From Echinarachnius parma (lineage: Eukaryota; Echinodermata; Echinoidea; Clypeasteroida; Echinarachniidae), in assembly GCA_037951105.1 (NCBI GenBank), contig JBAMJV010008401.1, forward strand, positions 27,511 through 91,510: 64,000 nt of DNA. Direction: 5' to 3'. The translations under genes and the position numbers were made by a program. The notes below the pieces were generated by a model, which made no database searches, had not been told where the DNA came from, and was given only the letters and a program-made list of their open reading frames with translations. Of the stretch, positions 2-56,000 are shown piece by piece (the first letter of the stretch is position 1; every line of letters begins with the position of its first letter).

Positions 2-3000
2 TGCAATAAAGACAGTGGAGGAGGAGGAGGAGGTGGCAGGGGGTGGAAACCACTCCATAAACCAGAGTGGTTTGAAGTATCAAGAAAGGTGAGATGTTAA
101 ACATTTATTGGAATCCGTTTACATGTAAATTAACTTGTCCATAGAGCCATCTGCTTAAAAGACCACCTTTTCTGTCTCCGCTAGGCGGTTGTTATTGACA
201 TGTTTGGCTTGATATTGTTTGAAGAGAGTAAATAAGGTGGAGGACCACCTTTTCTGTCTCCGCTAGGCGGTTGTTATTGACATGTTTGGCTTGATATTGT
301 TTGAAGAGAGTAAATAAGGTGGAGGACCACCTTTTCTGTCTCCCCTAGGCGGTTGTTATTGACATGTTTGGCTTTATATTGTTTGAAGAGAGTAAAGTAA
401 GGTGGAGGACCACCTTTTCTGTCTCCCCTAGGCGGTTGTTATTGACATGTTTGGCTTTATATTGTTTGAAGAGAGTAAAGTAAGGTGGAGGACCACCTTT
501 TCTGTCTCCCCTAGGCGGTTGTTATTGACATGTTTGGCTTGATATTGTTTGAAGAGAGTAAAGTAAGGTGGAGGAAGAAGAGGAAGAAGAGCAAGATGAA
601 GTTGGAAGACGAGGAGGAAGGGAGGAGGAGGAGGGAGGGAGGAGGAGGAGGGGATTTTGACCACAGCACAAACCAGAGTTGTTTGAAGAATCAGCTAGCC
701 GTTGTCAGCTCCCCAGTCAGCGCGTTGACAAAAGCTAGCAGAAGCGGCCAAAACATTTGCTGTTTATCATCTACACATCATGAGTGGACGGACATTTTTA
801 TAACATTCACTTTTTTTTTTACTGTTTTGATCATCAGTATCGTGACAGCAGCACGGCAGCCAAGGGTCTGTTTGTTGGTCACTGTTGGACTCCGATAGAT
901 CTACAGACCCAGCTCTTGCCTTACCTAGCGCTGGTCAACGTTCCACTCAGAAATCCTGGTGAGTTACTATTCATTGATTTTGATTTGTTACCAGTTCCAA
1001 GTCCTGACTAGGCCATTTGTGTCTTGCCCATTAATGGTAAGAGTAAGACTAAGCAATCATAATGGCATCCATCTGTCCATCTGTCCACAAACAATTTTAC
1101 AAGTTTACTTACAATCTCCTTAATTGCTAACAAGTTTGCAACCTGCCATCCATTTGGAAGCAAACTTGGTGAAGTATGGTCAAAGGTCACAAGATTAAGG
1201 TTTTGGTTCACTTCAACTGACGAAATCTTGATTTTACTTTGCCCACTGGGCCACGAGGGGAAAATAAGTTAATTAGCTCATCCGGCCCGAAGGGCCCGAT
1301 GAGCTTATGCCATGCCGTTGCGTCCGTCGTCCGTCCGTCCTTCCGTCCGTCCACAGTTTTCAAAATGCTTCTTCTTCGTTATTTTTCAACCGATTTTGAT
1401 TCTGATTGTTTCATAAGATAGGGCTAGGAGGGGGATTTAAAACTTCTATACAGAATTTTGAAATTTTTCTCCATTAATTAATTATGGTAATTTATGCAAA
1501 TTTATTCAAAAAATCACAAAAAATGCTTCTTCTCCTTCATTTCTCGACCGATTTTGATTTGGTTTGCTTTATCTGGTAGAGCTAACTTTGGTACACTAAA
1601 TTTCTACACAGAATTTTGAAATTTTTCTCCATTAATTAATTATGGTAATTTATGCAAATTTATTCCAAAAATCACAAAAAATGCTTCTTCTCCTTCATTT
1701 CTCGACCGATTTTTATTTGGTTTGCTTTATCTGGTAGAGCTAACTTTGGTACACTAAACTTCTACACAGAATTTTGAAATTTTTCTCCATTAATTAATTA
1801 TGGTAATTTATGCAAATTTATTCCAAAAATCACAAAAAATGCTTCTTCTCCTTCATTTCTCGACCGATTTTTATTTGGTTTGCTTTATCTGGTAGAGCTA
1901 GCTTTGGTACACCAAACTTTTACACAGAATTTTGAAATTTTTCTCCATTAATTAATTATGGTAATTTTTTATTTATTTATTTATTTTTTTTAAATTTTTT
2001 ATTTATTTATTTATTTATTTATTTTTATTTATTTTTATTTTATTAAAAAAAAAAAAATTTTGGTTATTTTTTTTACATTTTTAAATTTATTTATTTATTA
2101 ATTATTATTATTATTAGTAGTATTATTAGTTTTTTTCCCATGTTCCTTCTGGGGCGTCAAATTTATATTTTTGTCCCTTCCAGGGCAGTTTTTGACCAGT
2201 TGAAAAGTGTACCACATGAAATTTGCGATATTTGATGTTGCGAGATGCCGGATGAGCGCTACGTCATTGACGTTCTGGTTTTTAGGATGTCATCAAGTTG
2301 AATGTAATGTGCTCATCATAAAATAGAAGATGGCTAGTTATGCAAAAAATTGCAGCTTTTTGTTTTGAAAATTAATTGGCACCACCTTTGTAAAATTATA
2401 GCAATACAAATTGTATAAATGTGTTGATGTATTTTCTGCAGCTCCATATCTTTAGTGTAACTATGAAGAGCATGTTTCTTATGATATGTTGTAAATTTCT
2501 TTGGTGATTTTTTATTGCATAATTATCTTTCAATTTTCCACAGGTCAAATTGCCTTCCTTCAAGAGGTGACGAGATTCTCAAATATGAAGCATGGACGGT
2601 ATGTACTATTGTATTTATTATTGTTTTTCTTCACATTGTTTATTATTGATGCAATTTATGATTTCAAATGACAGAACTAATTAAGTACAGCTCTCCTTGA
2701 TATGTTAATCAAAACAAAACAAGTGAGAAAAATCATCAGTGGAAAATTATGGAAATTCTTTTGATAAATTGGAGGTAATAACTAATTCCTACTTATTATG
2801 AAGTCATTCACACATGAAAATTGAGATTAGATGAGTTGGATGTTGATAAGGTAATAAATAAGATGCCTTACTCTCATCATAGAGCTGTTATTATCCTAGG
2901 CCTTTTGTGATATCAGCCCCATATGTACATGTCAATGTTTGTTCAGTCCCACTTGTAGATTTTGCTGTTGCTGCTACATCCAATGGCTAAACCCTTGACT

Positions 3001-3742
3001 TATTCCCTCTAACATATTATAGCCAAAGAGACAAGATCCCTACATCCCATTGCTCTGTTTCCCTATCTCAGTCCCACATGTACATTTTGGTGTTAATTTC
3101 ATCGCTGTTACCTGTATATTGCAAAACCCTCTGTATATTCCCTCTAACAGGAGATGGCCCAAGGAACTGGATGAGAGAGATGTTGATGATTCAGGTCTCA
3201 AAGTTGTCTTCCCTCATGCAAGACCTCCGTTTCATCACTCTAGTCCCATATGAATATTTTAATGTTGGTTCAGCCCCTCTTACATCCCACATTCTATGTT
3301 TACAAATTTGTGGTCTGTGTTTGCTAAACCCTTGATATATTCCCTCTAACAGGAGATGGCCAAAGAAACTGGATGAGAAGGACATTGATGAGGCCGGTCT
3401 GGAAGATTACTTCCTTAGTTCTCTGTTTCTCCATCTCAGTCCCACATGTACATTTTGATGTTAATTTCATCGCTGTTACCTGTAATAATATTGCAAAACC
3501 CTCTGTATATTCCCTCTAACAGGAGATGGCCAAAGAAACTGGATGAGAAGGACGTTGATGAGGCAGGTCTTGAGGATGACTTCCCTAGCTCCCAGAACTC
3601 TGTTTCATCCACCATCTCATCCTCACAGGGAGGCAGGAACAAAACAACGCTGGATGGACACAACGTGGATGCCCTGGACGACTCTGCAGTCGCAGGGGAT
3701 GAGGAGGATGAGGAGATCGTTATCGAGGATTTCGATGACTGA
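2..3742 (+). CDS. 3' part of an unrecognised gene with acidic C-terminus (partial, 4 exons seen)
   Basis: Proposed exons are 2-88, 838-958, 2544-2598 and 3523-3742, with the stop at 3740-3742. Each junction has GT/AG sites (donors after 88, 958, 2598; acceptors before 838, 2544, 3523) and reading phase is kept (0, 1, 2). The joined peptide is about 158 residues: a Gly-rich run, then WKPLHKPEWFEVSRK, a hydrophobic stretch around LLPYLALVNVPLRNPG, QIAFLQEVTRFSNMKHG, then RRWPKKLDEKDVDEAG and a Ser-rich segment. It ends in a strongly acidic tail (EEDEEIVIEDFDD). The 5' part lies outside the window, and the exon at 2-88 may begin further upstream. I do not recognise the family, and the first exon's frame rests only on phase agreement. 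The terminal exon exists in three tandem copies (see 3151-3458). Confidence 0.6.
161..575 (+). repeat. 83-bp minisatellite, about 5 copies
   Basis: The phrase GACCACCTTTTCTGTCTCC recurs near 161, 243, 326, 409 and 493, a period of 82-84 bp, with few differences between copies. The same phrase type occurs at 41003-41050 followed by ATAGACAGGTTTGAC, the end of the CAGTCAAACCTGTCTATAG MITE family. The unit therefore appears derived from that MITE. It lies in the intron after the first visible exon. Confidence 0.85.
595..700 (+). repeat. Degenerate copy of the exon at 2-88
   Basis: A GGAGGAGG-rich run followed by ACAAACCAGAGTTGTTTGAA resembles the exon end at about 15-88 (ATAAACCAGAGTGGTTTGAA). 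It has diverged and lacks the donor GT at the matching place. It looks like an old local duplication of that exon. Confidence 0.5.
1275..2258. mobile_element. Inverted-end repeat element with GTCC-rich head and internal 160-bp repeats
   Basis: The left end carries TCATCCGGCCC and a (GTCC)n-like stretch at 1322-1350. The right end carries GCCGGATGAGC, so the ends are inverted (TCATCCGGC). The interior has about four copies of a 160-bp unit beginning ATGCTTCTTCTCCTTC, at about 1363, 1523, 1681 and 1840, then an A/T-rich tract. No coding capacity is seen. I infer a non-autonomous element of a type common in marine invertebrates. Confidence 0.55.
2600..3150. other. Intron, no further feature
   Basis: This is AT-rich intron sequence before the duplicated terminal exons. 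The stretch at 2900-3030 looks like an older, decayed version of the intron part of that duplication unit. Confidence 0.4.
3151..3458 (+). other. Two tandem upstream copies of the terminal exon (possible alternative C-termini)
   Basis: The acceptor-plus-exon segment TTCCCTCTAACAG|GAGATGG occurs at 3151, 3353 and 3523. All three copies open in the same frame (RRWPKELDE or RRWPKKLDE). Copy 1 would end at the TGA at 3251-3253 and copy 2 at the TGA at 3456-3458; only copy 3 has the long acidic tail. The repeat unit (about 170-200 bp) includes upstream intron with the phrase CAGTCCCACATGTACATTTT. A more decayed relative lies near 2930-3030. Splicing to copy 1 or 2 would give short alternative ends, but use is not proven. 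Confidence 0.6.
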
Positions 3743-4290
3743 GATTACCAAACTTATATACAGTAGAAACTCTCTATATTAAAAGTTTGGTTATAACGCG
3801 GTAATTATTCAGGTCCAGATATTATGTATGATGTAAAAGAGGAGTATCTGGAGATCATTATCCAGGATTTTGATGACCGAGATTAAAGGTGCACCTGTAA
3901 AGGGTCAGATATTGCCCAAAATGACATTTGAGACTTCAATCCTATACCAAAATCATTGTTAGATACATGTATGTCCGAATGATGTGTGAAAGTTTCATTG
4001 AAAAGGAACACTGCTTTCCTGGTTAAAAAAACATGAAAATTTGCTTCAGCTTTTACAACGAATTACTGTATGACGCTTATGAGGTTTATGACCGTTCATT
4101 AACGCTCTTGAGCTGAATGATAGATATCGTCATACAAAAGGGGCATTTGAAAAAAATCTAACTTTATTTTATTCTTCTCTTACCATAAGCTAAACAACAC
4201 GGTAGAAGAGAAACGAGGAAGCTCCAAGTAATTTTCGTGGAGTTAGACACTTTACAGGCATCCCTTTAACAGACTCATACAGTCACACCT

Positions 4291-5605
4291 AATGCTGTTA
4301 TCCGATCCGGATCCGATCCGAGATCCCGGCGGTAATGGCTTCCGAGCCGATTCCGAGACGGATCCGAGAAATATTTTTTCTCGGTAGAAAATATCGGAAG
4401 ATTTTGCCGACCCATTTTCTCCAGTGATAATTGAACATGTGTATGTTTGACAGTCCATTAAGTAGTGTAATTTAAATAAGAAATGGGGAAATCAATATTG
4501 TTTACTTTATGAGTGGTTATTTTGGAGAAATTCATGGTTCGTCAGTTCGTTTTGCAGTCGAAAATTGAACAGGATGCGCGAAATTGCTAGTCATTTGAAC
4601 GATGTTGTGGACGGATGTGCAATCAAAGTTACGCCGATACTCGAGGGGAGACGTCTGTTGGATGTCTGTATGATCGAGCTAATAAGCCAGTGCATTCAAA
4701 ATGTGGCTCTGAATACGTTTTATTGTCATTTGCACATTTAAAAATGTTCTGATATTCTACTTACATGATTTCTTGGCGTTTGATAGCTGGGCGGAAACAA
4801 AAATATGCCCCTAAACAATGAAAACAATTGCGCAAAATATCGATAAAAAATTACTACACCGCTCCCGTTTGCTTGTATAATTGCGTGTGCAGATATAGAT
4901 CCGCCGCCGGGAATTCCCCAATTTTCGGCGGATGGATCTCGCGTAAGAAAAAACGTTCACCATAACACACGCAAAGTAATACGACCAAATTAATGCCTAA
5001 TAACTTGTTGCATGTGCATGCAAGCTATAGCTAGCTAACTCATTGGAGTTCTCTCGAGGCCTAGCCGTCCGTAATCCGATTTTTTTCTTTGGAAATATAT
5101 CGATAATTCAGCAGTTTTGTCTTTGATTTGGGGGGTTATTTTGTATTCTGTTCGGCTTTCAGATGCCATGTTATCATGTAACTGTAAGTAGATTACCAGA
5201 ATTGTGTGGTTCCCTAAAAGGGTAATTTATAGCCGATTTTTGAGGGCAGTGGCCCGGCAGTGGCTCACAAGCGCGGTTTTCCACGCGATTGGCGGGTTGA
5301 GTTTCTGTGAAACGTGTGGTGCGATGCCGAACAAACCATCGAAAAAATACTTTTCTTGCGAAACTCTGAATAATCTGAATATTATTTTTCCGTAAAAATT
5401 GATATGTACATGCCTCGAAACGTCATTATTATTAATATTTTTGCCATATAAAACAAGAAAGATGAGTCTACAACGCTGCATTTTTTCAGAGCAAATTGCA
5501 ATATTTTTTTTCTCCGAGATCCGATCCGATCCGAGATCTCGTTAGCGATATAGAATTCTAACGATCCGAGAACGGGCCGGGATTTTTTGTTTACCTAACA
5601 GCATT
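4291..5605. mobile_element. TIR transposon nested in the 4280 MITE, 10-bp target duplication
   Basis: The ends are AATGCTGTTA (4291-4300) and TAACAGCATT (5596-5605), a perfect 10-bp inverted repeat. They are flanked by the direct repeat AGTCACACCT at 4281-4290 and 5606-5615. Both ends are followed inward by repeated GATCCGATCCGAGATC-type motifs (4301-4375; 5515-5580). A 9-11 bp duplication fits Mutator-like elements. It is 1,315 bp and shows no transposase reading frame. Confidence 0.75.
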
Positions 5606-5640
5606 AGTCACACCTGTCTTAGCGGCCACCCATCGGCCGC

Positions 5641-9180: not shown

Positions 9181-9187
9181 AGCTTAA

Positions 9188-9506
9188 AGGGATCTAGTAA
9201 CTTTGTTGACATGTGCAACAAGTGATGAGTGGTTGATACAATGTATCGTTATATGGCCGAGTAATGACAAAAATGCAAAGTGATGTTCACTAACTCATTG
9301 CACTGACTTTGTACACGGTTTTGACGATCCATTGGATAATTTATCATCTGAACACTTCAATCGTAAATATCTTTCTAACGAAAGGGAAATTTGAAAAACC
9401 GAAACCTGTCCCATGCTTTTATTGCTAATACGAATACAACAAGGTATGCGGGAACCGCTAGAATTTCAATTGGATTTTGAGTATTTGGACAATGTTACTA
9501 GTCCCT
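9188..9506. mobile_element. AGGGAnnTAGTAAC MITE (family P5), TTAA flanks
   Basis: It is flanked by TTAA on both sides (9184-9187; 9507-9510). The left end is AGGGATCTAGTAACTTTG and the right end GTTACTAGTCCCT, which are inverted. Related copies lie at 14676-15053, 42490-42869 and 52763-53135. A TTAA target fits piggyBac-like mobilisation (inference). Confidence 0.75.
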
Positions 9507-9795
9507 TTAATGCTAACTTGTGGTACATAGCATCGGTTGAGAAAGAGAAGGGCACCAAGTCCTTTAATGCTAACGTGTGGTACATAGCATCGGTTGAGAA
9601 ACAGAAGGGCACCAAGTCCTTTAATGCTAACGTGTGGTACATAGCATCGGTTGAGAAACAGAAGGGCACCAAGTCCCTTTAATGCTAACGTGTGGTACAT
9701 AGCATCGGTTGAGAAACAGAAGGGCACCAAGTCCTTTAATGCTAACGTGTGGTACATAGCATCGGTTGAGAAACAGAAGGGCACCAAGTCACTTT
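9500..9795 (+). repeat. 57-bp minisatellite abutting the P5 MITE
   Basis: Five copies of a 57-58 bp unit containing CCTTTAATGCTAACGTGTGG and GAGAAACAGAAGGGCACC repeat near 9500, 9557, 9614, 9671 and 9729. The first copy starts inside the MITE's right end (GTCCCTTTAA). The resulting open frames on both strands are products of the repeat, not genes. Confidence 0.85.
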
Positions 9796-12080: not shown

Positions 12081-13248
12081 CCCCTTTTCACAAGAAAGTT
12101 TTCGTCTAAAAGATATTTCTCATTTTTATCAGCTGGATGCAAGTTTTCCTTTTGAAGAAATGACAACAGATACTTGTTAACACCAACTAGGGACTGATGT
12201 ACGGTCACATCTCAATGAACTAGCTCTCGAGTCCAGAGATCACTTTCTTTGGAAGAAATTAGACAATATACTTTTACTTGTGTGATGAAAGTTTTCCTTG
12301 TGAAGAAATGACAGCAGATATTTGTAAACACCAACTGGGGACTGATGTATGGTCACATCTTAATGAACTAGCTCTTGAGTTCAGACATCACTTTCTTTGG
12401 AAGAAATAACACAATCAATTTTTACTCGCTAGATGAAAGTTTTTCATTTGAAGATATTTTTTTGCTCAATGTTTGAAAGTTTTTCTTGTGAAGAAATGAC
12501 AGCAGATACTTGTAACACACATCTGGGGACTGCTGTAAATGGTCACATCTTGATGAACTGGCTCTTGGGTTCAGACATCACTTTCTTTGGAAGAAATTAC
12601 ACAATATATTTATACTTGCTGGATGAAAGTTTTTCTTTTGAACAAATTTCAAATTTGTATAAGCTTATAACAGTTTTCCTTCTGAAGAAATGACAGCAGA
12701 TCTATATAATTTTACAGGATGTGAGTGTTTTCTGGTCACACCTTGATAAATAGGCTCTTGAGTTCAGAGGTGACGGTCTTCGAAAAGAAATTTCATAATA
12801 TTTGACTTGCTGGATCAAAGTTCTTCTCCTAATATTTTAACTCGCTGGATCAAAGTTTTTCTCTTGAAGCAATTTCACAATATTTGTACTTGCTGGAAGG
12901 AAAGTTTTTCTTGTGAAGAAACGATGGCATCTATCATTTTACAAAGTCTAGGAACTGTTTTCTGGTCGTCGCACCTTGATGAACTAGCTCTGGAGTCCAG
13001 AGATAACTTTCTTTGGAAGAAATTACACAATATATTTTATACTTGTGTGATAAAAGTTTTTCTTGTGAATAAATAACAGCATCTGGGATACTGGGGACTG
13101 TTCTCTGGTCAGACCTTGATGAACTGGCTCCTGAGTTCAGAGATGACCACAGCCTCACCCTTCCTCTCATAATAGTGGTCAGACCTTGATGAACTGGCTC
13201 CTGAGTTCAGAGATGACAACAGCCTCACCCTTCCTCTCATCATAGTGG
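12080..13248 (-). repeat. Array of decayed copies of the CZIB last exon
   Basis: The end of CZIB's last exon (plus-strand phrase CCTTGATGAACTGGCTCCTG) is repeated downstream of the stop. Two near-perfect 70-bp copies start at 13108 and 13178, in series with the real one at 13248. Five or more diverged copies lie near 12195, 12345, 12540, 12735 and 12965 (for example TGATGAACTAGCTCTGGAGT followed by CTTTCTTTGGAAGAAAT). Divergence rises with distance from the gene. The copies would sit in the 3' UTR or 3' flank. Confidence 0.75.
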
Positions 13249-13901
13249 TCAGACCTTGATGAACTGGCTCCTGAGTTCAGAGATGACCACAGCCTCACCC
13301 TTCCTCTCATCATAGTCTGCCCAATCCTGTAAAGTAAAAGAAAATGGAAAGAGATATTCGGTAATAATAATTGATATCAAATAACTTGAAAACAGGTATT
13401 CATGCTCATTGGCATTGGTGAACAATGGCATTGCTGAAGTTTGGTGCCCCCCAAAGGTAACCAATACTCATAAATATATATGTTTACTATTAAGCATTGT
13501 TAACAAAGATCGCAGGTTCGATATGAAAATCTTTATTTCCGTAATACAGCTTGAGAATTGATAAAAGAAATTCAAAATATATATTCAGGCTTTGTCAAAA
13601 CAAATTGTAATAATCATTGAAACCATTTAAATTGCATTCTTTCAAGCAAAACAAGAACTATACGGTGGAACCTTGTTATAGAGAGCTCTATATATAGCAA
13701 AACTCTCTTATAACAGGGTAAATTTGCTAGTCCACACTTTTTATTCATTACATTTTTTCACTGATATAACAAGATCACTGTAATATAACAAGGTCATTTT
13801 CATGGTCCCAAGGTATTCATTCCAAAAAGGTTGGAATGTAATTTGCATTTCTTGCCATCATAATTCAAGGTCATCTTTTAAAAGAGATTTCTTGTCACTA
13901 T

Positions 13902-13947: not shown

Positions 13948-15814
13948 ATTGATGAGGATGATGTTGGTAGTGGTGATGGTGATGCTTCACAGCACTTGTG
14001 TGCCATAGAAAGGTGCCTGTGACTCCAAGCATTAATGTATTTATAGTTATATCAGATTAAAGTTGAAAACTTGATATGAAATTAATCTTACGTCTGATTG
14101 AAGGTCAATTTCAGCAAACTTGGTTGTGGTGTCAACTCCCTCAGCCTGGAACCCCGCCTGAAATACAACATTATAGATCAGAAGAAATTGAAATTAAAAT
14201 TGAAAATCAAACAGTTTTGAGTAATTTGCTTTCTTTCAGTCTAGATATTACATTTAATTGAGTATTGGGAGAGTAACATAGAAGTAATCTTCTATGGTAC
14301 ACAGTGAGTGAGCGTGCGCCGCGCTGCGAGTTGTTGCTACTCTCTTTATGTAGGTACTCTTAAGTATTGATACCTTACAAAATGCTCAATAGTGAGCTCT
14401 TTCTACTATTACTTACCCTGAAAGAAAACTCCACAGGCTCCATACCTCTGCAGTCGAAGGCCACTATCGTCTGGAATTGGTTGTTCTTGTCTATCGAGTA
14501 GGGCTTGAGGAAGTCTTTCAGGATATCTGTGGATAATCAGCCAGTGAACATTCATTTTATTGGGGCAAGTAGAAAAACTTTTCTACTTTACTAACACATT
14601 TCTACTCAAAAACAATTTGGACTCGTCGAAAAACAGCTTTTTTTTGCGGACAATGGCAATAATCCCTGTATTTAAAGGGACTTAGTAACATTGTCCAAAT
14701 CCTCAAAATAAAATTTTCACTCTAGTGGTTCCCTCATACCTTGTTGTATTCGTATTAACAATAAAATCATGGGACAGGTTTCGGTTTTTAAAATTTCTCT
14801 TTCGTTACAAAGATATGTACGATCGAAGTATTCAGATAAGGAAAACTCCGGGCGAGTTTTTCTTCTGTGTACAAAGTGAGTGCAGTGAGTTATTGAATAT
14901 CACTTTGCATTTTTGCTCATTGCTTGGCCATGCAATGTCCATGTGACTTGAAATTTTCACACAATACCCTGTGGACACAATACCCTGTGAGATAACAATA
15001 ATATACATTGCATCAACCATTCATCACTTTTTGCACAAAGTTACTAGATCCCTTTAAAGTGTAGACTTACTATAGATAGATAGATAGATAGATAGATAAA
15101 TGGTTTTATTCATATAACTGCACATCGTAGCCCGAAAGCTAAATTGTATACAATTTTACAATCAAATAAATCATATAAAGCATAAGATACCATTACAAAA
15201 TACAATTACATAATAACAATAAAGTACATATTATAAAGACAAATAATACATCCATTACACTGAAATAATCGGAAACGTTAGCATAAAAAGATAAAAAGTC
15301 ATGGTACTACTATAAAATCATTTAAAGTGGATAATGAATCTGGCATTTGAGTAATTACTTGGAGTTGATATTTATGTTAAATAGCATCACGATTATCGAA
15401 TATTGCAACAAAATTAATAGAGTAACGAATAAGTAATTCATGAACTCATGTTCACTATATGTTCACTATGTTCACAATCACTGTGTGAGATCATTACTAC
15501 ATGTATAGTAGATCATTACTAATTAGACATATTATATTAACAAATGTGACCAGTAGTCAGTACTATTGATTTGATTTTTAACCTGTTCAGGACCAGTCCC
15601 AAAAATACTTGGGTCTATGGAGAATACATGTTTTAGCAAAATCAATCAGTCCTGAACGAGATAAGTACAAAACATCAACATTTTCTTGAACCGTAGATAT
15701 TTATCACATATTTATCATACTTAGCCTACCTATTGAGTTTTCTCTGTGGCAGAGTTTGCATTTTGCCACCATACTGGCATGACCTCTCCCTCCCTTCAAA
15801 GGACATTGTTCCTG

Positions 15815-25830: not shown

Positions 25831-25834
25831 TCAA

Positions 25835-26085
25835 ACAAGGTACAGTTCATAGAAGACTGGCTGGCTGGTTCAATTAATGCAACTACTCCCTCTGGGCTTA
25901 ACAAAGCTGTTGTTGATAACCAATTAGACATAGGTCTGTTCTTTTACCAGCCCACCCTGCTCATTCGTAATAAACCAGGTACAGTTTATAGAAGGGCAGG
26001 CTGGCTGCTTCCGTTACTGCTACTACCCCCTCTGGGCTTCACAAAGCTGTCGTTTATATGTTTAGCAAACCTCAGCCCACCTTGC
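25835..26085 (-). repeat. Two tandem copies of the OGFOD1 last coding exon, downstream of the stop
   Basis: The plus-strand phrase ACTGCTACTACCCCCTCTGG of the true last exon (26086-26259) recurs at about 26011 and, more diverged, at about 25880 (GCAACTACTCCCTCTGGGC). Each copy is preceded by the same TACAGTTYRTAGAAG text. The nearer copy extends through the stop-codon flank (GCTCATTCGTAATAAACCA). These would lie in the 3' UTR or 3' flank. Confidence 0.8.
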
Positions 26086-41000: not shown

Positions 41001-44000
41001 GACCACTTTTCTTGTCTCCATAAGGTGGTTACTATAGACAGGTTTGACAGGTAGAGGATAAAGGGCACCCTCAAGGGTGCAGGGGGGAAAGGGAATTAAA
41101 TTGATCCATAAACTTCATAAGATTTTTTCCAAAAGTGATATTTGAAACTTCAATCATATAATACAAACATCCTTCCTTTCTGAATGATGTGTGATAGTTT
41201 CATAGAAAACAAACACTGCTTAGTGTTTAACTAGTGAAAATTGAAGTCATGCAGATCTTATAACCTACTGCCCACTGATTTTGACTACCGTAAACTGGGG
41301 TGACTTTGGCCGCTGGGGTGACTTTGGCCGCCGGGGTGACATTGGCCGCCGGGGTGACTTTGGCCACCGGGGTGACTTTGGCCGCCGGGGTGACTTCGAC
41401 CACTTCTTGAGAAGGCTGTATTTTCATCAAGTCTCACTCTTTAGAACTAATTTCTGATTCTATACATTACCCTATAAGAATATTTTTGAAACAATAAGAA
41501 ATTTGTTCTAAAATGTGAGGCTTGATGAAAATACATTAATCTAAAAAAGTGACCTAAGTCACCTCAGTTTACAGTACAATAATAAAGTGTTCCAAGAACA
41601 CTTTTCATTCAATCATAAATATATCCTTAATTAGAGAGACATTTGACATTTCGAATGGATGTTGGCACCCAGGTCACTGCTAAGGTTTAATAGCTCTTGG
41701 CAACTTGGTACTGTAAACTGATCATTTTCCGAACAAATTGTGACACTATAAATATGAGAATAAAGGCAATGAGAATTAAGGGGTTTCAGGGACGAGCACC
41801 GTCTCGGGTTTTCTATAGCTCAGTCGGAAGAGCACCGGTCTAGCAATCCGGAGGTCTCAGGTTCGAATCCCGTTGGAATCCCATTTACTTTGCCTTCTTT
41901 TAATCACTATAAATATGAGAATGATACCTGTGTAGTTGTACTTGGAGCTTGTCAGATCATAGGTGTCGATGAACGGAATCCCCAACACCTCTCTCAACCA
42001 GCTCAGGAAGTCTTCGTACAAAACCTTCCTGTTGGGTGGGTAAAGGAAAGAAACATATGGGGTCAACTTTATTTATAAACAAGTTTTTCCTTTCTTTTTT
42101 TCAATGTATTAGTTTGAAAACTACTCCTCAGATCATAGGTGATCAAAGGTTATGAATGGAATCCCTCAACCAGCTAAAGGATGTCTTCATAAAAAAAACA
42201 TCCTGGTTGGGTAAAGAAAAAGAAACATTTAGGGTCAAACTCAATTGACGAACAAGTTTTCATTTGAACTCATTTGTTTTAAGCTTTAAAAATAATTCCA
42301 AATATGAATTTTCCCCAAAAATGTGTTAGTTTGAAGACTAACTCTCAATAGTAAGTTCACATAAACAATTGTTTACTTTTATAAACAGTGGAACCGCGTT
42401 ATAAATCCCCAACACCTCCCTCAACCAGCTTAGGAAGTCTTCATACAAAACATGTCTGGTTGGGTGGAAAGAAACAATGATAATATTAAAGGGAATTAGT
42501 AACATTGTCCAAATCCTCAAAATCCATTTGTAATTCTAGCGGTTCTCTCAATCTTGTTGTTTGCATTAACAAAAAAAGCATGGGACAGGTTTTGGTTTTT
42601 CAAAATTCCCTTTCATTAAAAAGATATTTACGATTGAAGTATTCAGATGTTAAATTATCCAATGGATTGTCGAAACCGTGTACAAAGTCAGTGCAATGAG
42701 TTAGTGAACATCACTTTGCATTATTGCTCAGTCATTACTCGGCCATATAAAGTCTATTTAACTCAAAATGTTCACACAACACCCAGTGGACATATCAGAT
42801 AACAACAATATACATTGTATCAACCACCCATCACTTTTTGCACAATGTCAACAAAGTTACTAGATCCCTTTAAGTGCTTGGTGCAAACAAGCCTCTAAGC
42901 ACTTTAGAGAAGGTGAGTATACACTATACAGAGTGTGAAAATAGAGAAGAGTTTGAACAAATTAAAATAAACTAGATCTATGGATCTTCGACTGCGTGCA
43001 GTCGAAAATTATGCCTCCGCTATCACGTGATTTTAATATCCTGAATTAATTTTTTTCTCATATATTTAAAGTTCTGTGACCTTGACCATATGACTCCAAA
43101 CTTTGATGGCTACATTGGATCCCAAAACATTCAGGTACCAAGTGAGATTGAAATCTGACATTTAGTTCTTGAGATTTTGCCATTACAAGCTTTTTTGCAT
43201 GTAGAGTCATGTGACCTTGACCTCAAACCTCATGATCCCAATATGTTATGGCTACGTTGACTCTTTATGATACATTCAGGTACCAAGTTTGATTGAAATC
43301 TGATATTCAGTTCTTGAAATTTGGCCATTACAAGCCACTTTTGCATATATTGTGTCCTGTGACCTTGACCTTTGACCTCATGACCCCTAAATCGAATCGA
43401 TCATTGCCACCCAGATGCGTACACTCGTACCAAGTTAGAAATTGATCTGTCAACCGGTTCTTGAGATATCGCGAGAAAGAGGCATTTTTTCACATATATT
43501 GAGTCCTGTGACCTTGACCTTTGACCTCATGAACCCTAAAATGTAATCAAATCATAACCACCTCAATATGTACACTCATACCACGTTTGAAATTGATCCG
43601 TCAACCGGTTCTTGAGATATCGCGAGAACGAGGCATTTTTGCATATACGGACGTACGGACAACCCGAAAACATAATGCCTCCGGCCACTTCGTTGGCGGA
43701 GGCATAACAAAGGTTCAAACTCAAGTTTACATCCATGGTTTTGTTACTGTTAGTTTGAAACTATGAAATATGGGATCTAACTGAACCTGTGAACTTGTTT
43801 TGGTTTCAACTTAATACTAGTTTGATATAGTTTGAAATATGGGATCTAACTGAACCTGTGAACTTGTTTTGGTTTCAACTTAATACTAGTTTGATATAGT
43901 TTGACATATGGGATCTAAACTGAATTCATGGACATGTTTTTTTCTCATATGATTTAGTTTGAAAACTCATATGCTATGGATTAAAATTTGAATTAAATTG

Positions 44001-47000
44001 ATCATGGTCCATTATTTGTATTCAATACAAATTTCAGGAATCATGATTTTAAGATCAGCAATTTCAAGGATATGAAACTTGTACAGTCAAACCTGCTAAT
44101 GCAACCACCTGTCTAAAGCGACCACCTGCTCATAACGACCGCTCTCTGGTCCCCCCCCCCCCCTGAAAAATCATGTGTTAAGCGACCTGCGTAATGCGAC
44201 CACCTGCCTAACCCGACCAGCGACCACCCTATTTGGGTCCCGACGCACATACATCTGTGTATAGCGACCACAAAATTAGCGCTTGAGCGAACAAGGCATC
44301 AAGTTAACTCAGTCGCCTCTGGTCACTCAAGGATCCAATTCTGAGCATGTCAATGCATAAAACAAACTTTTTAAATGACAATGAACTTCAGACAGCTTAT
44401 ACTATATAGATTGACATTGGCTGGTCAATAGCTATCACATTACGATTTTAGTATTTTAGTCTCTAATACAGTCAAACCTGTACTAGTGCCCACCTGTCTA
44501 TAGTGGCCACATAAAATTCCCCCCCCCCCGAGGAAAATTACAATATTATTATTAAATTTACCCTAAATGGCTTATATATCGCACCTCTTCTGAAATGGAC
44601 CCTAAATGGCGCATCGCACCTTTTCTGAAATTAATAATAATGTTTCTATTTATATAGCGCCTAATATGATTGATAATCATCTCTAGGCGCTTTACAATAT
44701 TATTATTAAATTGACCCTAAATGTTGTAAGTATCGCATCTTTTCTGAAATGGAAACTAAATGACGTATCGCAGCATTCCTGAAATGTACCCTAGATGGCG
44801 TATCACACCGTTACTGAAGTGGACCCTAAAAGGCGTATCAACATTTTAAATTTAACACCCCTAAAATGTTATAAATGGCGTATAAATGCTCTTCAAAGTT
44901 TAAATGCGATCTCCCCATCGACATCAACTTCCCCGCTGGTAGCAGTGAGAATAGTAACTAAATCAGAGAGAGGGGAAAACCGGTTCTTCGTTGCCGAAGC
45001 GAAGTGTAGCTAGTATGATGCGGTGTCCGAATATGGCCCCCCTAATTTTTAACAACCGATATCTGAAAAACTAACTTAGTAAAAAACACAAAATTCGTAA
45101 AGAATGAACTTCAATTGAAAATGAAAATAATGCCATACCTTATCTGCCGACTGCGATTGTAATCGTCCCGTAATGGCGATTTGCATTTCACTGCACAAAA
45201 AAATCACATTGAAAGAGGGTGCCGTAATATGGCCCCCCTTTTTAAAGTCTTGTTTTCTTTGAAAAATAATACACTTTTTCCAATGAAAGTGCCATCAAAA
45301 CATTTGTATAAACATGAAAAATCTGCCAAATCTGAGACAATTCTGAAACCATGTCATTTATTCCCCTGTGCAAAAAAAATCCCATTCATTTGTACACACT
45401 TGACTATGAGCGCGCAGAAGATGATTTGTTGCTTGCGCGATGAGTCTTATTGCGCTTACCACAAAGGAAAATAGATTTAAGCAAATGAAGTTCACTGCGC
45501 GAAATTTTCTTTGTTAATGCGCTTAATCAGCTGATAAAACAGGGGGGCCATATTACAGCATGGGCCATATTTGGTAGCCTGATTATACTAGTAGTATAGT
45601 ACTTGGACAATATTGTCAAACGTGATAACACAGAATGCCACACTCGGGACTGAAGTGAACGTTATTTCATTGAAAACCACAGAAAATCATTCAGTAGCCC
45701 AATAACTCGAAAGATGTATATTACATAGCATTTACCTCAGCTCAGACAGCATCATTGAAAACCACAGTAAATCATTCAGTAGCTCAATAACTCGAAAGAT
45801 GATATTACATGGCATTTACCTCAGCTCAGACAGCATCATTGAAAACCACAGTAAATCATTCAGTAGCTCAATAACTCGAAAGATGTATATTACATAGCAT
45901 TTACCTCAGCTCAGACAGCATCATTGAAAACCACAGTAAACCATTCAGTAGCTCAATAACTCGAAAGATGTATATTACATAGCATTTACCTCAGCTCAGA
46001 CAGCATCATTGAAAACCACAGTAAATCATTCAGTAGCTCAATAACTCGAAAGATGTACATGTATATTACATAGCATTTACCTCAGGCTCAGCTCAGACGG
46101 GGCTCAGCCTCAGACAGCATCAACAAGTTCATAACAAACATCTTGCGACATCTCAGGACTTATTTACTCTTCCCTCAATAACATTTAAAATCCCTTGGGA
46201 GTGGAACATTCCCTGCTTTTCCCTCCACCACCAGTTAACAAATGTATAATATTGACTAATCGGCATAAGAACTAAATAACAGCACGCTCTCGGGACTTTT
46301 TAACATGGCGGCGGACGTGCGCGCACTCTAGTCAGAGCCGTAATAAATATATGGCTCTGACTCTAGTATAGATCTACACAATGCATCAATGTTATACACG
46401 TACGTACGCATGCACGCGCTCGTGACCGGGCAGGTTCGATCGCGATATTTGGTGTTTCCATCATACAAAATGTGATTGTTGTTACAAAATATCCCGCAAA
46501 AGATGCGCCAATTGCGGGATAGAATCAGCCTGGGTAATTCACACCCTTTTTAAAGAAAAAACGTTGAAAACCTGTGCACCTAAAAAGGTACCCTTTTTAA
46601 AGAAAAACGTTGAAACCTGTGAACCTGAAAAGGTACCCCTTTTTAGGCTTTTGTGCCATCAGTGCTTGAAAAACACCCCTTTTTAAAGAAAACGGCGACG
46701 ACGCCGTATAGCTGTAAATGATACCCTTTCAACATTTTTTTTGGACGCGGGTGCATAGCCAGTCATGTTGAGAGTGACCCCCCTCCCCCCCCCCCCCCCC
46801 CCCCGGGGTTAACACATAATGAAACCTTTGTCATTATTTTAGTGCTTTTCTCAACAAAAAATAAGACAATTGTTTCCAGGATTATAGTCATGTTGTTTAT
46901 GTTCTTGTGTACATGTGTATGTGATATTAATGTTTATAAATATGTGCTTAAAAAAACAAAATGGCCGCCAACCTGTCTATAGCGGGGCCACCTGTCCATA

Positions 47001-50000
47001 GCGGCCACTTTCCAAGTTTCCCTTGAGCGGCCGCTATAGACAGGTTTGACTGTATATTGGATAGAATATTCCAGGGTCATCATTACCTCCAGTATACTAA
47101 ATGGAATTCGACATATTTTCATAGATGTTTTTCAAACATAGTTTCAGTACCGCCCCGGGAGCATAAATAATGATAATTATGGATGTGCACAAAAGAGTGA
47201 ACATTTATTGAAACAATTATGAGTATCATAAAGTCGCGTCCTTCTATGATGTTTGAACAGCCAGTATTTGCGCGGAGTACTATTTACGGAGTATTAATTA
47301 CATTAGAATAACAGCTATCTTTCTATTCTATTATCAAGGTTATCACGTTGACGTGGTTTGGCAAAATAGTCTCGTTGGCACTGAACCAATTCAGGACTTC
47401 GTTGCCGAAGCGAAGTGTAGCTAGTATGATGCGGTGTCCGAATATGGCCCCCCTAATTTTGAACAACCGATATCTGAAAAACTAACTTAGTAAAAAACAC
47501 TAAATTCGTAAAGAATGAACTTCAATTGAAAATGAAAATAATGCCATACATTATCTGCCGACTGCGATTGTAATGGCGATTTGCATTTCACTGCGCAAAA
47601 AAAATCACATTGAAAGAGGGTGCCGTAATATGGCCCCCCTTTTTAAAGTCTGTTTTCTTTGAAAAATAATACACTTTTTCCAATGAAAGTGCCATTAAAT
47701 TGTTCTTAAAATCCTGAAGATTTAATTTGTTCACAAAACATTTGTATAAACATGACAAATCTGCCAAATCTGAGACAATTCTGAAACCATGTCATTTATT
47801 CCCCTGTGCAAAAAAATCCTATTCATTTGTACACACTTGACTATGAGCGCGCAGAAGATGATTTGTTGCTTGCGCGATGAGTCTTATTGCGCTTACCACA
47901 AAGGAAAATAGATTTAAGCAAATGAAGTTCACTGCGCGAAATTTTCTTTGTTAATGCGCTTAATCAGCTGATAAAACAGGGGGGCCATATTATTACAGCA
48001 CGGGCCATATTTGGTAGCCTGATCATACTAGTAGTATAGTACTTGGACAATATTGTCAAACGTGATAACACAGAATGCCACACTCGGGACTGAAGTGAAC
48101 GTTATTTCATTGAAAACCACAGAAAATCATTCAGTAGCTCAATAACTCGAAAGATGTATATTACATAGCATTTACCTCAGCTCAGACAGCATCATTGAAA
48201 ACCACAGTAAATCTTTCAGTAGCTCAATAACTCGAAAGATGTACATGTATATTACATAGCATTTACCTCAGCTCAGACAGCATCATTGAAAACCACAGTA
48301 AATCATTCAGTAGCTCAATAACTCGAAAGATGTACATGTATATTACATAGCATTTACCTCAGCTCAGACAGCATCATTGAAAACCACAGTAAATCATTCA
48401 GTAGCTCAATAACTCAAAAGATGTACATGTATATTACATAGTCATAGCATATACCTCAGCCTCAGGCTCAGTTCAGACGGGGCTCAGACAGCATCAACAA
48501 GTTCATAACAAACATCTTGCGACATCTCAGGACTTATTTACTCTTCCCTCAATAACATTTAAAATCCCTTGGGAGTGGAACATTCCCTGCTTTTCCCTCC
48601 ACCACCAGTTAACAAATGTATAATATTGACTAATCGGCATAAGAACTAAATAACAGCACGCTCTCGGGACTTTTTAACATGGCGGCGGACGTGCGCGCAC
48701 TCTAGTCAGAGCCGTAATAAATATATGGCTCTGACTCTAGTATAGATCTACACAATGCATCAATGTTATACACGTACGTACGCATGCACGCGCTCGTGAC
48801 CGGGCAGGTTCGATCGCGATATTTGGTGTTTCCATCATACAAAATGTGATTGTTGTTACAAAATATCCCGCAAAAGATGCGCCAATTGCGGGATAGAATC
48901 AGCCTGGGTAATTCACACCCTTTTTAAAGAAAAAACGTTGAAAACCTGTGCACCTAAAAAGGTACCCTTTTTAAAGAAAAACGTTGAAACCTGTGAACCT
49001 GAAAAGGTACCCCTTTTTAGGCTTTTGTGCCATCAGTGCTTGAAAAACACCCCTTTTTAAAGAAAACGGCGACGACGCCGTATAGCTGTAAATGATACCC
49101 TTTCAACATTTTTTTTGGACGCGGGTGCATAGCCAGTCATGTTGAGAGTGACCACCCCCCCCTCCCCCCCCCCCCCCCCCCCGGGGTTAACACATAATGA
49201 AACCTTTGTCATTATTTTAGTGCTTTTCTCAACAAAAAATAAGACAATTGTTTCCAGGATTATAGTCATGTTGTTTATGTTCTTGTGTACATGTGTATGT
49301 GATATTAATGTTTATAAATATGTGCTTAAAAAAACAAAATGGCCGCCAACCTGTCTATAGCGGGGCCACCTGTCCATAGCGGCCACTTTCCAAGTTTCCC
49401 TTGAGCGGCCGCTATAGACAGGTTTGACTGTATATTGGATAGAATATTCCAGGGTCATCATTACCTCCAGTATACTAAATGGAATTCGACATATTTTCAT
49501 AGATGTTTTTCAAACATAGTTTCAGTACCGCCCCGGGAGCATAAATAATGATAATTATGGATGTGCACAAAAGAGTGAACATTTATTGAAACAATTATGA
49601 GTATCATAAAGTCGCGTCCTTCTATGATGTTTGAACAGCCAGTATTTGCGCGGAGTACTATTTACGGAGTATTAATTACATTAGAATAACAGCTATCTTT
49701 CTATTCTATTATCAAGGTTATCACGTTGACGTGGTTTGGCAAAATAGTCTCGTTGGCACTGAACCAATTCAGGACTTCGTTGCCGAAGCGAAGTGTAGCT
49801 AGTATGATGCGGTGTCCGAATATGGCCCCCCTAATTTTGAACAACCGATATCTGAAAAACTAACTTAGTAAAAAACACTAAATTCGTAAAGAATGAACTT
49901 CAATTGAAAATGAAAATAATGCCATACATTATCTGCCGACTGCGATTGTAATGGCGATTTGCATTTCACTGCGCAAAAAAAATCACATTGAAAGAGGGTG

Positions 50001-53000
50001 CCGTAATATGGCCCCCCTTTTTAAAGTCTGTTTTCTTTGAAAAATAATACACTTTTTCCAATGAAAGTGCCATTAAATTGTTCTTAAAATCCTGAAGATT
50101 TAATTTGTTCACAAAACATTTGTATAAACATGACAAATCTGCCAAATCTGAGACAATTCTGAAACCATGTCATTTATTCCCCTGTGCAAAAAAATCCTAT
50201 TCATTTGTACACACTTGACTATGAGCGCGCAGAAGATGATTTGTTGCTTGCGCGATGAGTCTTATTGCGCTTACCACAAAGGAAAATAGATTTAAGCAAA
50301 TGAAGTTCACTGCGCGAAATTTTCTTTGTTAATGCGCTTAATCAGCTGATAAAACAGGGGGGCCATATTATTACAGCACGGGCCATATTTGGTAGCCTGA
50401 TCATACTAGTAGTATAGTACTTGGACAATATTGTCAAACGTGATAACACAGAATGCCACACTCGGGACTGAAGTGAACGTTATTTCATTGAAAACCACAG
50501 AAAATCATTCAGTAGCTCAATAACTCGAAAGATGTATATTACATAGCATTTACCTCAGCTCAGACAGCATCATTGAAAACCACAGTAAATCTTTCAGTAG
50601 CTCAATAACTCGAAAGATGTACATGTATATTACATAGCATTTACCTCAGCTCAGACAGCATCATTGAAAACCACAGTAAATCATTCAGTAGCTCAATAAC
50701 TCGAAAGATGTACATGTATATTACATAGCATTTACCTCAGCTCAGACAGCATCATTGAAAACCACAGTAAATCATTCAGTAGCTCAATAACTCAAAAGAT
50801 GTACATGTATATTACATAGTCATAGCATATACCTCAGCCTCAGGCTCAGTTCAGACGGGGCTCAGACAGCATCAACAAGTTCATAACAAACATCTTGCGA
50901 CATCTCAGGACTTATTTACTCTTCCCTCAATAACATTTAAAATCCCTTGGGAGTGGAACATTCCCTGCTTTTCCCTCCACCACCAGTTAACAAATGTATA
51001 ATATTGACTAATCGGCATAAGAACTAAATAACAGCACGCTCTCGGGACTTTTTAACATGGCGGCGGACGTGCGCGCACTCTAGTCAGAGCCGTAATAAAT
51101 ATATGGCTCTGACTCTAGTATAGATCTACACAATGCATCAATGTTATACACGTACGTACGCATGCACGCGCTCGTGACCGGGCAGGTTCGATCGCGATAT
51201 TTGGTGTTTCCATCATACAAAATGTGATTGTTGTTACAAAATATCCCGCAAAAGATGCGCCAATTGCGGGATAGAATCAGCCTGGGTAATTCACACCCTT
51301 TTTAAAGAAAAAACGTTGAAAACCTGTGCACCTAAAAAGGTACCCTTTTTAAAGAAAAACGTTGAAACCTGTGAACCTGAAAAGGTACCCCTTTTTAGGC
51401 TTTTGTGCCATCAGTGCTTGAAAAACACCCCTTTTTAAAGAAAACGGCGACGATGCCGTATAGCTGTAAATGATACCCTTTCAACATTTTTTTTGGACGC
51501 GGGTGCATAGCCAGTCATGTTGAGAGTGACCACCCCCCCCTCCCCCCCCCCCCCCCCCCCGGGGTTAACACATAATGAAACCTTTGTCATTATTTTAGTG
51601 CTTTTCTCAACAAAAAATAAGACAATTGTTTCCAGGATTATAGTCATGTTGTTTATGTTCTTGTGTACATGTGTATGTGATATTAATGTTTATAAATATG
51701 TGCTTAAAAAAACAAAATGGCCGCCAACCTGTCTATAGCGGGGCCACCTGTCCATAGTGGCCACTTTCCAAGTTTCCCTTGAGCGGCCGCTATAGACAGG
51801 TTTGACTGTATATTGGATAGAATATTCCAGGGTCATCATTACCTCCAGTATACTAAATGGAATTCGACATATTTTCATAGATGTTTTTCAAACATAGTTT
51901 CAGTACCGCCCCGGGAGCATAAATAATGATAATTATGGATGTGCACAAAAGAGTGAACATTTATTGAAACAATTATGAGTATCATAAAGTCGCGTCCTTC
52001 TATGATGTTTGAACAGCCAGTATTTGCGCGGAGTACTATTTACGGAGTATTAATTACATTAGAATAACAGCTATCTTTCTATTCTATTATCAAGGTTATC
52101 ACGTTGACGTGGTTTGGCAAAATAGTCTCGTTGGCACTGAACCAATTCAGGACTTGACCAGAAAATACTCGGGTTTGGGTCAATGTAAAATACATGTTAT
52201 ATCAAAATCAATCAGTCCTGAACGGGTTAAGAGTATTGTACGATTGTAATAGTTAGGAATGTGGTAGGAGTCTATGAGCCCTTTTACACACGAGAAAATT
52301 TGTGATTGCAACCACGATTGGAATCAATCTTCACTCTAATCACGGTATTTTTGACCGTGTGAACACAAACTAGAATCACGAATCGCGAATTGATAATCGT
52401 TGTCCAGAGGTGTTTTCTAATCATGATTCACTCAAATCACAGTGCGAATCGGTAGTGTGAACGGCTTGTCCTCCAAAACACGATTTGGGAAGCCGAGCTT
52501 ACGTGACCTTACATGCACTTCCGCCGATAAACCGCGCTCTAATCGCTTCGAGTGCAGTGCATGTAGTGTAATATACAAAAGATGGCGCTCAGTTTGATTG
52601 ACAGGTACACATAAACACGTCTCCAGAAACGCGATTGTAATCACAGTTTGTGTGAAGGCTTTTAATAAAAGCAAGGCAACAGAATCACCGTGATTGTAAA
52701 CATGATTCCAATCATGATTGCAATCACAAATTTTTCTCGTGTGTAAAAGGGCTCTATTTTAAATGGATTTAGTAACATTGCCCAAATCCTCTAGTCCTCA
52801 AATTGGAATGCTAGCGGTTCCCTCATACATTGTTGTATTCGTATTAACAATATAAGTATGGGACAGGTTTTGGTTTTTCGAACTTTCCCTTTCGTTAAAA
52901 AGATATTTCAGATTGAAGTGTTCAGATGTTAAACTATCCACTGGATAGTCGTAACAGTGTACAAAGTAAGTGCAACGAGTGATTATCACTTTCCATTTCT

Positions 53001-56000
53001 GCTCATTACTCGGCCATATTACGTTCATTTAACTTGAAATGTTCACACAATTGCCAGTGGACATATCGCATAACAACACTATGCATTGTATCTTTTTGCA
53101 CTTTTTGCACATGTCAACAAAGTAACCAGTTCCCTTTAATTGTTTTGTTTAAGACTACACGCTTAATTACCGACACCTAGTGCTTCGGACTCATAAACGA
53201 AGAGTATTCGTGCCCTTCAGTACCTAATGCTGATACAGAAATTTGTAGAACAAAGGCACTTCACTCAACATCACAACATAATTTGACATCTAACAAATAT
53301 TTTAATCGCCGAGGCGGGGTGTTTTTGACTCTTTTTCAATGATAATCCGTGTGCTTGTTACGACCAAACAATGCATTTTGACTTAAAAATTCTGTAGAAT
53401 ACTATACACATAGGAATACGCGTAGCTGATTTTCTCATGATGAGAAAATAAATGACTCATTGACACATTTTGCAATTTTAATTTCACTTAACAAGATATA
53501 ACAATATTTAATATCATTTAAAATATAATGACAATATATAATTTCAATTTTGTTGTGGTTATGCATGCAACAAAATTAATACTAAAATAAACTATGGACA
53601 CTTGCGTGTACACGTGTACAGATGCCAATTAATTACACAACATGTGCATTAAACGAGAAATTTAAAATGGCCGCCAACCTGTCTAATGAGACCACCTGTG
53701 ACCTGTCTATAGCGACCACTTTTCGCCGGTCCCTTGAGGGGTCGCTATAGACAGGTTTGACTGTATTATAAAACCTACACATTCGTGAAAATATACTAAT
53801 ATACTGCAAATGCTCCACAATTAATATGAATACCCGTACTTACTTTAGAGCTGAGATGCTGGGTGAAGAGACATTATGTAAAGCATCAGACTGAAAAGAG
53901 AACAAAAGAAAATAATATTTTAAATAATGTAAACATTTCTTCTTTAACCCTAACAGGGCCGGGGGGCAGAAACCACCCCCTTGACTTTTCGCACGATAAT
54001 TCTGCAACACATGCAGGTATTGCTGCGCCGCTTCATGCGTTTTTTTCATTGTAAGTATTGATGGATTTGACAGGATTTCCTTATTTTTGAAAGTATTATA
54101 CCCCTTACGATTTCGATATTGTTTTTGTATAATTTTGGTCAAATATACTGCTTTTAACACTTACATTTTTACCTGTTTGAACTTGTATCTATTTGATTTG
54201 CTGCAATAGTCCAGTTTATCAAGTTCTTCTTTGAGCCTTTCTAGAATTCTCTTATCTTTAACTAATTATGTTTCCGAATGATATACAGTCAACTCTGCCT
54301 AAGTCGAATCTGTTGGGACTGAATGAATTGCTTCGACTTAGAAAGAAATCAACTAAATGTAAGGTTAAAACAATCGAAAATAAAGCAAAAGGACTGATAT
54401 ACATGTAACACCTTCAACTTAGGCGATTAATCGACTTATGCAAATTCGAATTAGGCAGAGTTGACTGTAGTACTTTAAGAACTTGAAGTATATCATTCGG
54501 AAACATAATTAGTTAATAGTACAAATAAGTTGAACTATTGTAATTACATTTTATTGAATCTTACCTGCTTGAATTTGTAGAGGTCATTTGATTTGCTGCG
54601 GTAGTCCAGTCCAGATAGCTCCTCCTTCAGGTCTTCCAGGAATCTCTGGTCATCGATGAAGTTTGGCAGGACGCAGCAAGTGAATGGGTCATTTATGAAC
54701 TCCGCCTGCGAGCCTAGAAAAAAGTAGCAAAGAAGAAAAGTGTTGAATTAATACTCAACCCAACTATTACAAATAATAATTATAACGAAAGGGTTCAATT
54801 TTGTAGCCCCTTATATGATACAGATCTCTTAAATAAAGGGACAGTCCCTCTTTTACAAAACGTCTGAACAGTTTCCAGTTGATGGATGGGGATGAATGTA
54901 ACACACACAAACAAAATCAGATCGAACAGCCCTGTAATTTGGATTCTACGAATGAAAAACGAATGCGCCCCTCCATCAAACTATGTATCGGTCAATAAAT
55001 GAGTTTAACTGATACTATTACAACAATATTGTACTTATTCTTGTAAAGGTATTGTGAAGCCAACATTTGTAAAACGTATGTCACTGAAAAAGATCTCAAA
55101 ATGAAGAATATATTATTACATGTAGTAAGTTTAAGCCGAGGTTTGGTTATTTTTTCAGTATCCGGTTATCCGTTGTTATTTATTCACGGGTCACGTAGCT
55201 AGCGCGGGTCACGTAGGGGTCACGCATAGCGATCTAGCACTCTGTGAATCCGTGTACGAACTTACGCACCGGGTGAATACACATATAATGCACAATTAAC
55301 CGTTGGACGATGGTTTATTAGTTTTAGGTATATAACTCCACGAAAAAGAGATTTCAAGCCCTAATTTTTTCAAACATGCTATTAAATGAAATTTTCTTTC
55401 ATATAAGACAATAACCTCGCAACTTTTGAAATTTGGCTTGCAAAAGAGGGGCTATCCCTTTAAATAAATGTGTTATGTGTCGTATTACAACTACCCCACA
55501 GTATATTCTAGGCTTCCACTTTATTTAGCCTGGTCCTTTAGACTCTTAGAGATTCTGAAATCCTTGTAGACTTTGTGCATGTAACTCACCAGGTTCCAGC
55601 AGGCAAGTGGTCAAAGTATATTCAGTACCGTAAACCGGGGTGACTTTGGCCGCCGGGTAGACTTTGGCCATTTTTTTAGATGAATGTATTTTCATCAAGG
55701 CTCACTTTTTGTAACAAATTTCTTATTGTTTCAAATATATTCTTATAGGGTAATGTATAGAGTGAGACTTGATGAAAATACATCCTCAAAAAGTGGCCAA
55801 AGTCACCCCGGCGGCCAAAGTCACCCCGGCGACCAAAGTCACCCCGGCGGCCAAAGTCACCCCGGCGGCCAAAGTCACCCCGGTGGCCAAAGACACCCCG
55901 GTAGTCACCCTGGCGGCCAAAGTCAGCCCGGTGGCCAAAGTCACCCTGGCGGCCAAAGTCACCCCGGTGGCCAAAGTCACCCCGGCGGCCAAAGTCACCC

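Follow-up and report, generated by a model that had tools for sequence, protein, structure and literature searches.

Partial tandem copies beside exons of three genes in Echinarachnius parma, probable relics of local duplication

Next to many exons of the genes OGFOD1, CZIB and RAD17, a 64,000-nucleotide stretch of Echinarachnius parma DNA (the window; positions 27,511 to 91,510 of contig JBAMJV010008401.1, assembly GCA_037951105.1) carries decayed direct copies of pieces of those exons, here called echoes. We consider it quite probable that these copies were left behind by ordinary local tandem duplication, which would act genome-wide, be largely blind to exons, and leave traces that stay visible for longer at exons. 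Self-alignment of the window, which is animal DNA from an assembly of 1.2 Gb, confirmed decayed copies at OGFOD1 exons 2, 4, 5, 7, 8, 9 and 12, at the OGFOD1 exon 1 donor, at the last exon of CZIB and at two exons of RAD17, thereby recovering every echo that a first-pass annotation of the window had listed. All run in the direct orientation, most cover part of their exon, and their ages differ, the range extending from 116 identical aligned bases (echo a of OGFOD1 exon 5) down to ~73% identity.

Distribution and geometry of the echoes

Flank scores of 26–91 at echoed exons compare with 10–18 for reversed or shuffled controls, and a low-complexity piece of OGFOD1 exon 10, an exon without a flanking echo, scored 23 when shuffled; near pairs number 215 in the real window and 1 in total in two shuffled windows. 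Nine of the 22 modeled window exons have an echo, as does the RAD17 exon at 36–88, which lies outside both this count and the 55-exon sample considered below, and was positive in a separate same-side analysis. A flank search found no echo of OGFOD1 exons 3, 6, 10 and 11, nor of exon 1 beyond its last 14 bases, and none was found for five of the six modeled CZIB exons, two of the four RAD17 exons in the window or the intronless ZIP gene.

The window had been selected for its echoes, and regions outside it were therefore sampled. A profile search of the genome, with haplotigs dropped, yielded 24 chaperonin exons, 14 of which have a local direct copy, compared with 0 in a reversed control. Eight of these 24 matches contain stop codons; among stop-free matches, a copy accompanies 8 of 16 exons and 7 of 19 tiles, a tile being a 110-bp piece scored as positive when a direct copy lies no more than 1.5 kb away. 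The 24 chaperonin loci are those left after removal of the haplotig loci L023, L024, L030, L043 and L049 and the truncated L040, and L022 was additionally left out of the tile, codon-position and same-side counts. Upstream of the window (L002–L003, contig C8386 7511–27510), echoes occur at four of nine RAD17 exons tested. Random sequence is also duplicated locally: 18 random genome regions of 10 kb hold 60 local direct-repeat events, and a direct copy exists for 132 of 560 random tiles, or 73 of 496 when two highly repetitive regions are excluded. Within the window, local direct repeats account for ~31% of the sequence.

Across the 55-exon sample, 27 exons have a direct copy and none has an inverted one, as scored by BLAST, which misses offsets below ~80 bp. 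Of 46 usable partial echoes, 44 flank their exon on the side that matches the copied part (21 of 21 at chaperonin loci, and 30 of 32 when only the best echo per exon side is taken), in a count made without OGFOD1 exon 10 and ZIP. Together with the direct orientation, this same-side rule is exactly the pattern predicted by head-to-tail duplication over an exon edge, and dispersed copying would not produce it. Repeat offsets, taken as the smallest in each block, are ≤240 bp in 85 of 97 local direct-repeat events over 303 kb, which suggests that the exon-like size of the echoes is simply the size of the duplication process. The value of ~240 bp is near the length of a single nucleosome repeat or Okazaki fragment, and as a nucleosome signature the unit size is suggestive only.

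We propose that local tandem duplication, mostly in units below ~240 bp, hits all sequence. A duplicated segment spanning one exon edge would leave an intact exon and, on the same side, a half-exon with a piece of adjoining intron and no more than one splice site. Such a half-exon would be nearly neutral and would decay, and interspersed elements and minisatellites may later land between exon and echo, widening the gap.

Preference for exons

The first-pass annotation had held that copies concentrate on exons, and had proposed a process that copies exon-sized pieces. A raw excess does exist: pooled over regions, 28 of 83 exon tiles and 184 of 1015 other tiles have a direct copy (1.9-fold, interval 1.16–3.06, bootstrap over regions), with individual counts of 4/11 versus 50/152 upstream in RAD17 and 10/41 versus 99/482 in the window. 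This excess did not survive removal of duplicates and matching for age, in which exon pairs of ≥88% identity were compared with control pairs of ≥78%, ages that would be about equal if the echo alone mainly decays. The matched tiles gave 12/83 for exons and 175/1015 for controls, a pooled ratio of 0.84 (0.44–1.41, bootstrap over regions). With seven further pairs of thresholds the pooled ratio lay between 0.78 and 1.11. The same 88% cut on both sides gave 1.10, and on the window's own contig the matched counts were 8/52 versus 142/634 (ratio 0.69, 0.27–1.44). Comparison of the raw and age-matched results places the raw excess mostly in old pairs. The annotation had itself named equal density of local copies in non-exonic sequence as the outcome that would speak against an exon-aimed process; equal tile density is what age matching yields in the pooled data, and the process as proposed finds no support.

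Old pairs would accumulate at exons because selection fixes the original exon, so that an exon–echo pair would diverge more slowly than an intron–intron pair and be recognizable for longer. Detection bias alone, simulated at 1.3–1.5-fold, falls below the raw excess, and we therefore also invoke indels and insertions that would erase intron pairs more quickly.

The shortfall of the simulated bias is one of several results that weigh against duplication largely blind to exons and that would favor exons as true hot spots, where a local process prefers exon-sized pieces owing, for example, to chromatin, base composition or transcription. The raw pooled excess has an interval above unity, and it is largest at the chaperonin loci (14/31 exon tiles versus 35/381 others, 4.9-fold, after overlapping loci were merged and the controls cleared of echoes). 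At these loci the age-matched ratio stays at 1.49 (4/31 versus 33/381; 0–2.63), and at a 0.85 cut it reaches 2.1–2.2 (6/31 versus 33–35/381). Events point in the same direction, in counts from which non-exonic arrays found only by Tandem Repeats Finder are absent and in which an 83-bp array is scored as exonic: with RAD17 dropped, 9 of 21 window events are exonic, where 2.7, 3.6 and 4.4 are expected at detection odds of 1, 1.5 and 2 (P = 0.0001, 0.0035 and 0.014), a two- to threefold excess that exceeds the simulated bias. With RAD17 retained, 13 of 25 events are exonic. Among young events, 6/15 to 8/17 are exonic (P = 0.001–0.09). Circular shifts of OGFOD1 only, with everything counted, show 7 of 9 exons overlapped compared with 3.1 expected (P = 0.04), and shifts made without arrays and a 2.4-kb triplication show 10 of 18 compared with 2.7 expected (P = 0.0008). 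Two exceptions to the same-side rule, the echoes of OGFOD1 exon 9 and of RAD17 36–88, and an excess of differences at third codon positions that is described below also speak against our main reading.

Nevertheless, we regard exon hot spots as unlikely. Circular shifts with all local repeats show 10 of 18 exons overlapped where 6.4 are expected (P = 0.08), and by identity there is no excess, with 6 exons versus 4.8 expected for repeats of ≥80% and 3 versus 4.3 for repeats of ≥85%. The pooled age-matched ratios run from 0.78 to 1.11 over the eight threshold pairs, the ratio for the window's contig is 0.69, and the offsets are common to non-exonic repeats. Moreover, only one of six CZIB exons is echoed and the single ZIP exon is not, in a window that was picked for its echoes. 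A mild exon preference in some genes is possible.

Individual echoes, their inserts and their fate

OGFOD1 lies on the minus strand, to which the coordinates of its exons and echoes refer. Its nine exons 4–12, joined in frame, encode 566 residues that match PDB 4nhx (E = 5.8e-125), and a probable exon 1 (59442–59657, start approximate, donor at 59441) has a phase compatible with exon 2. Exon 2 (54565–54713) is echoed in its 3′ part and donor at 54169–54252 (73% over 88 columns). Exon 4 (41928–42028) has an echo a of its 5′ part (42404–42482) and an echo b of its acceptor region and 5′ part (42128–42260). Beside exon 5 (40510–40626) lie echo a, a 145-bp tandem unit at 40716–40873 with the acceptor and the first 56 bases (exon part 56/56), and echo b, with the 3′ part and donor (39305–39400, 93%). 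Three echoes belong to exon 7 (35611–35739): a, with the 3′ part and donor (35424–35517), b (35057–35125) and c (34938–34977), the last of which is fused to the echo of exon 8 (33908–34021; echo 34888–34941, 91%). Exon 9 (31884–31963) is echoed at 31452–31522 (77%), against the same-side rule, and exon 12, the last (26086–26259), has two echoes within 25833–26075 (25948–26075 and 25833–25918; 87–91% over the exon part). When both sides of 11 echoes were followed outward, three showed clear homology past the echo ends: echo b of exon 4, echo b of exon 7 and copy a of exon 12. Exons 3 (probable, 53844–53890), 6 (36823–36914) and 11 (28973–29031) have no echo, and exon 10 (30248–31083) has none in its flanks.

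Two further observations concern these echoes. At 34888–34977, the exon 7 piece is joined directly to the exon 8 piece in one echo, off the normal exon junction. At exon 1, an array of seven 35-bp units (59206–59453) repeats the last 14 bases of the exon and the donor; this minisatellite, seeded at the donor, keeps AG/GTACGT (the slash marking the splice site) in five copies including the genuine one, and has it altered in two.

CZIB is likewise on the minus strand, and its joined exons match Pfam PF05907 (E = 1.9e-50). Its last exon (13249–13326) is followed by two young copies at 13106–13241 (98–99%) and, at 12203–13007, by five older ones that repeat the 3′ part of the exon, with identities of 81, 86, 86, 83 and 78% in order of distance. 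The annotation had described these copies as older with distance, which holds for two age classes (98–99%, then 78–86%) but not as a smooth gradient. It had also reported echoes at the first and last exons of an unknown gene; both echoes are present, but the gene is the 3′ portion of RAD17 on the plus strand (PDB 7z6h alignment, E = 9e-106), and the exon at the left edge is not its first. That exon (GWKPLHKPEWFEVSRK; 36–88, aligned to RAD17 of PDB 7z6h, donor at 89) has its echo at 627–693 (78%), again breaking the same-side rule. The last exon (3532–3742), assigned by frame and position outside the PDB 7z6h alignment, is preceded by decayed copies of its acceptor and 5′ part (2915–3531) and followed by a copy of its 3′ end (3837–3885, 84%). 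Two exons supported by the same alignment, 838–957 and 2546–2599, have no echo. An array of five 83-bp units with splice-site-like ends (161–575, plus strand) was considered as a further RAD17 exon and dropped, having no counterpart in the PDB 7z6h alignment.

Several exons are separated from their echoes by inserts, which probably arrived after the duplications. Between exon 2 and its echo lies a TTAA-bounded inverted-repeat element (54258–54516), the inside of which is a high-copy family; the element's family occurs in at least 38 other places at 80–91% among the matches listed. An inverted-repeat element (31570–31842) occupies the corresponding position at exon 9, an array of 21 42-bp units (39495–40391) lies between exon 5 and echo b, a 57-bp array (34115–34881) lies between exon 8 and its echo, and a high-copy family sits between the exon 7 echoes. 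By arithmetic, subtraction of the inserts leaves offsets of ~130–190 bp at exons 2, 8 and 9 and ~300 bp at exon 5 echo b. Element ends were observed only at the exon 2 and exon 9 inserts, in both cases beside the echo. An interspersed family is present at 9183–9521, 14671–15057, 42474–42882 and 52756–53148; one copy of this family extends into a 57-bp array and another abuts exon 4 echo a.

The distribution of differences over codon positions is consistent with a neutral fate of the echoes. First, second and third positions differ at 79, 55 and 159 sites (n = 293; OGFOD1 and chaperonin pairs, some chaperonin matches containing stops), counts that reject both two equally constrained copies (p = 5e-33) and uniform change, and that come closer to what a constrained copy paired with a free one would give. 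Third positions show an excess of differences over what a neutral-echo model allows (p = 0.0002–0.006). This excess, together with exon 7 echo a, where the frame is open over the copied part and the end is donor-like, could indicate that selection retains echoes in the role of alternative, mutually exclusive or poison exons. However, all nine aligned internal echoes are partial, frameshift gaps are frequent among echoes and affect several of these nine, and equal constraint on both copies is excluded by the codon-position counts; we therefore consider such retention highly unlikely, and the annotation's suggestion that echoes supply new or alternative exons gains no support.

Comparison with a second haplotype, covering exons 2 and 5, bears on both age and authenticity (for an exon 7 query, the best 40 of 209 candidates were a repeat family). 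Contig C11122 carries exon 2, insert and echo complete at 96%, as well as exon 5 echo b at 88%, but the acceptor region of exon 5 was detected on it only once. Exon 5 echo a may be haplotype-specific and, being identical over 116 bases, looks recent, in keeping with the ongoing duplication that the annotation had proposed. We give still less credence to the possibility that echoes are an assembly artifact in which allelic sequences were joined in tandem. Both haplotypes are indeed in the assembly and are ~95–96% alike, and the identical exon 5 echo a and the 98–99% CZIB copies are cleared neither by divergence nor by the second contig; most OGFOD1 echoes, however, are 7–30% diverged, past allelic distance, and the exon 2 echo and exon 5 echo b recur on the second contig. 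Least likely of all is capture and re-insertion of gene fragments by mobile elements or retroposition, for although interspersed elements and arrays adjoin several echoes, several copies include intron, and neither the lack of inverted copies nor the 44/46 same-side placement would be expected under capture.

Relation to described duplications

Tandem exon duplication with degenerate copies is a described class, and the present echoes fit its partial form in that direct copies lie in the gene neighborhood with head-to-tail geometry. PMC9013439 and PMC12343006 survey such duplications and take in copies that are unannotated or degenerate, and the latter reports partial and intronic matches in more genes than full matches. 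The feature common to those surveys and our data is the exon copy beside its source; here, by comparison, copies accompany 27 of 55 sampled exons, nearly all are partial, and non-exonic sequence is locally duplicated too. Short tandem duplication is given as the main source of insertions in PMC2374710, with reference to Messer and Arndt 2007; head-to-tail local copying is shared with that process, whereas the units here span tens of bases up to ~240 bp and are visibly accumulating. Clusters of mutually exclusive exons share the tandem homologous exon sequence, but none of the nine aligned internal echoes amounts to a full additional exon, which would need an acceptor, a donor and an open frame. 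Nor do the echoes resemble processed pseudogenes or retrocopies, in which introns are removed: intron is kept in copies of OGFOD1 exons 4, 5 and 9 and of the RAD17 last exon, and the fused exon 7–8 echo is joined away from the exon junction, unlike a spliced retrocopy. Mobile-element capture would leave orientation free of the source exon, and 0 of 55 exons had an inverted copy.

Judged from one genome, the density of echoes and their size ceiling seem unusual, and the literature searches made returned no title on such an echo density or on the same-side rule, a statement valid for those searches alone; PMC8998645 had no bearing on the question. Tentatively, duplication in this genome might be unusually active, with a ceiling of ~240 bp, and might keep adding half-exons, each with a single splice site, next to roughly half of the conserved exons, which it may slightly favor, an idea to which we lend limited weight. 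If true, this process would provide a standing supply for new splice sites or exons. With roughly every seventh random 110-bp piece (73/496) having a direct copy within 1.5 kb, exon-edge duplicates would be abundant raw material. They are also an annotation hazard, as one family search illustrates, in which hits that overlapped on one region of the profile lay at most ~260 bases apart at four places. More generally, a sound observation may suggest exon targeting where selection on one partner may suffice, and age matching and the same-side rule offer simple tests.

Other features of the window include the ZIP transporter gene, a single exon on the plus strand, and two stretches within OGFOD1. 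Between exons 3 and 4, a 2.4-kb unit is present in ~3 head-to-tail copies (44986–52155), the later copies being 98.9% alike, and between exons 12 and 11 lie reverse transcriptase remains in several frames (26887–28093, with RVT_1 in 27114–27779).

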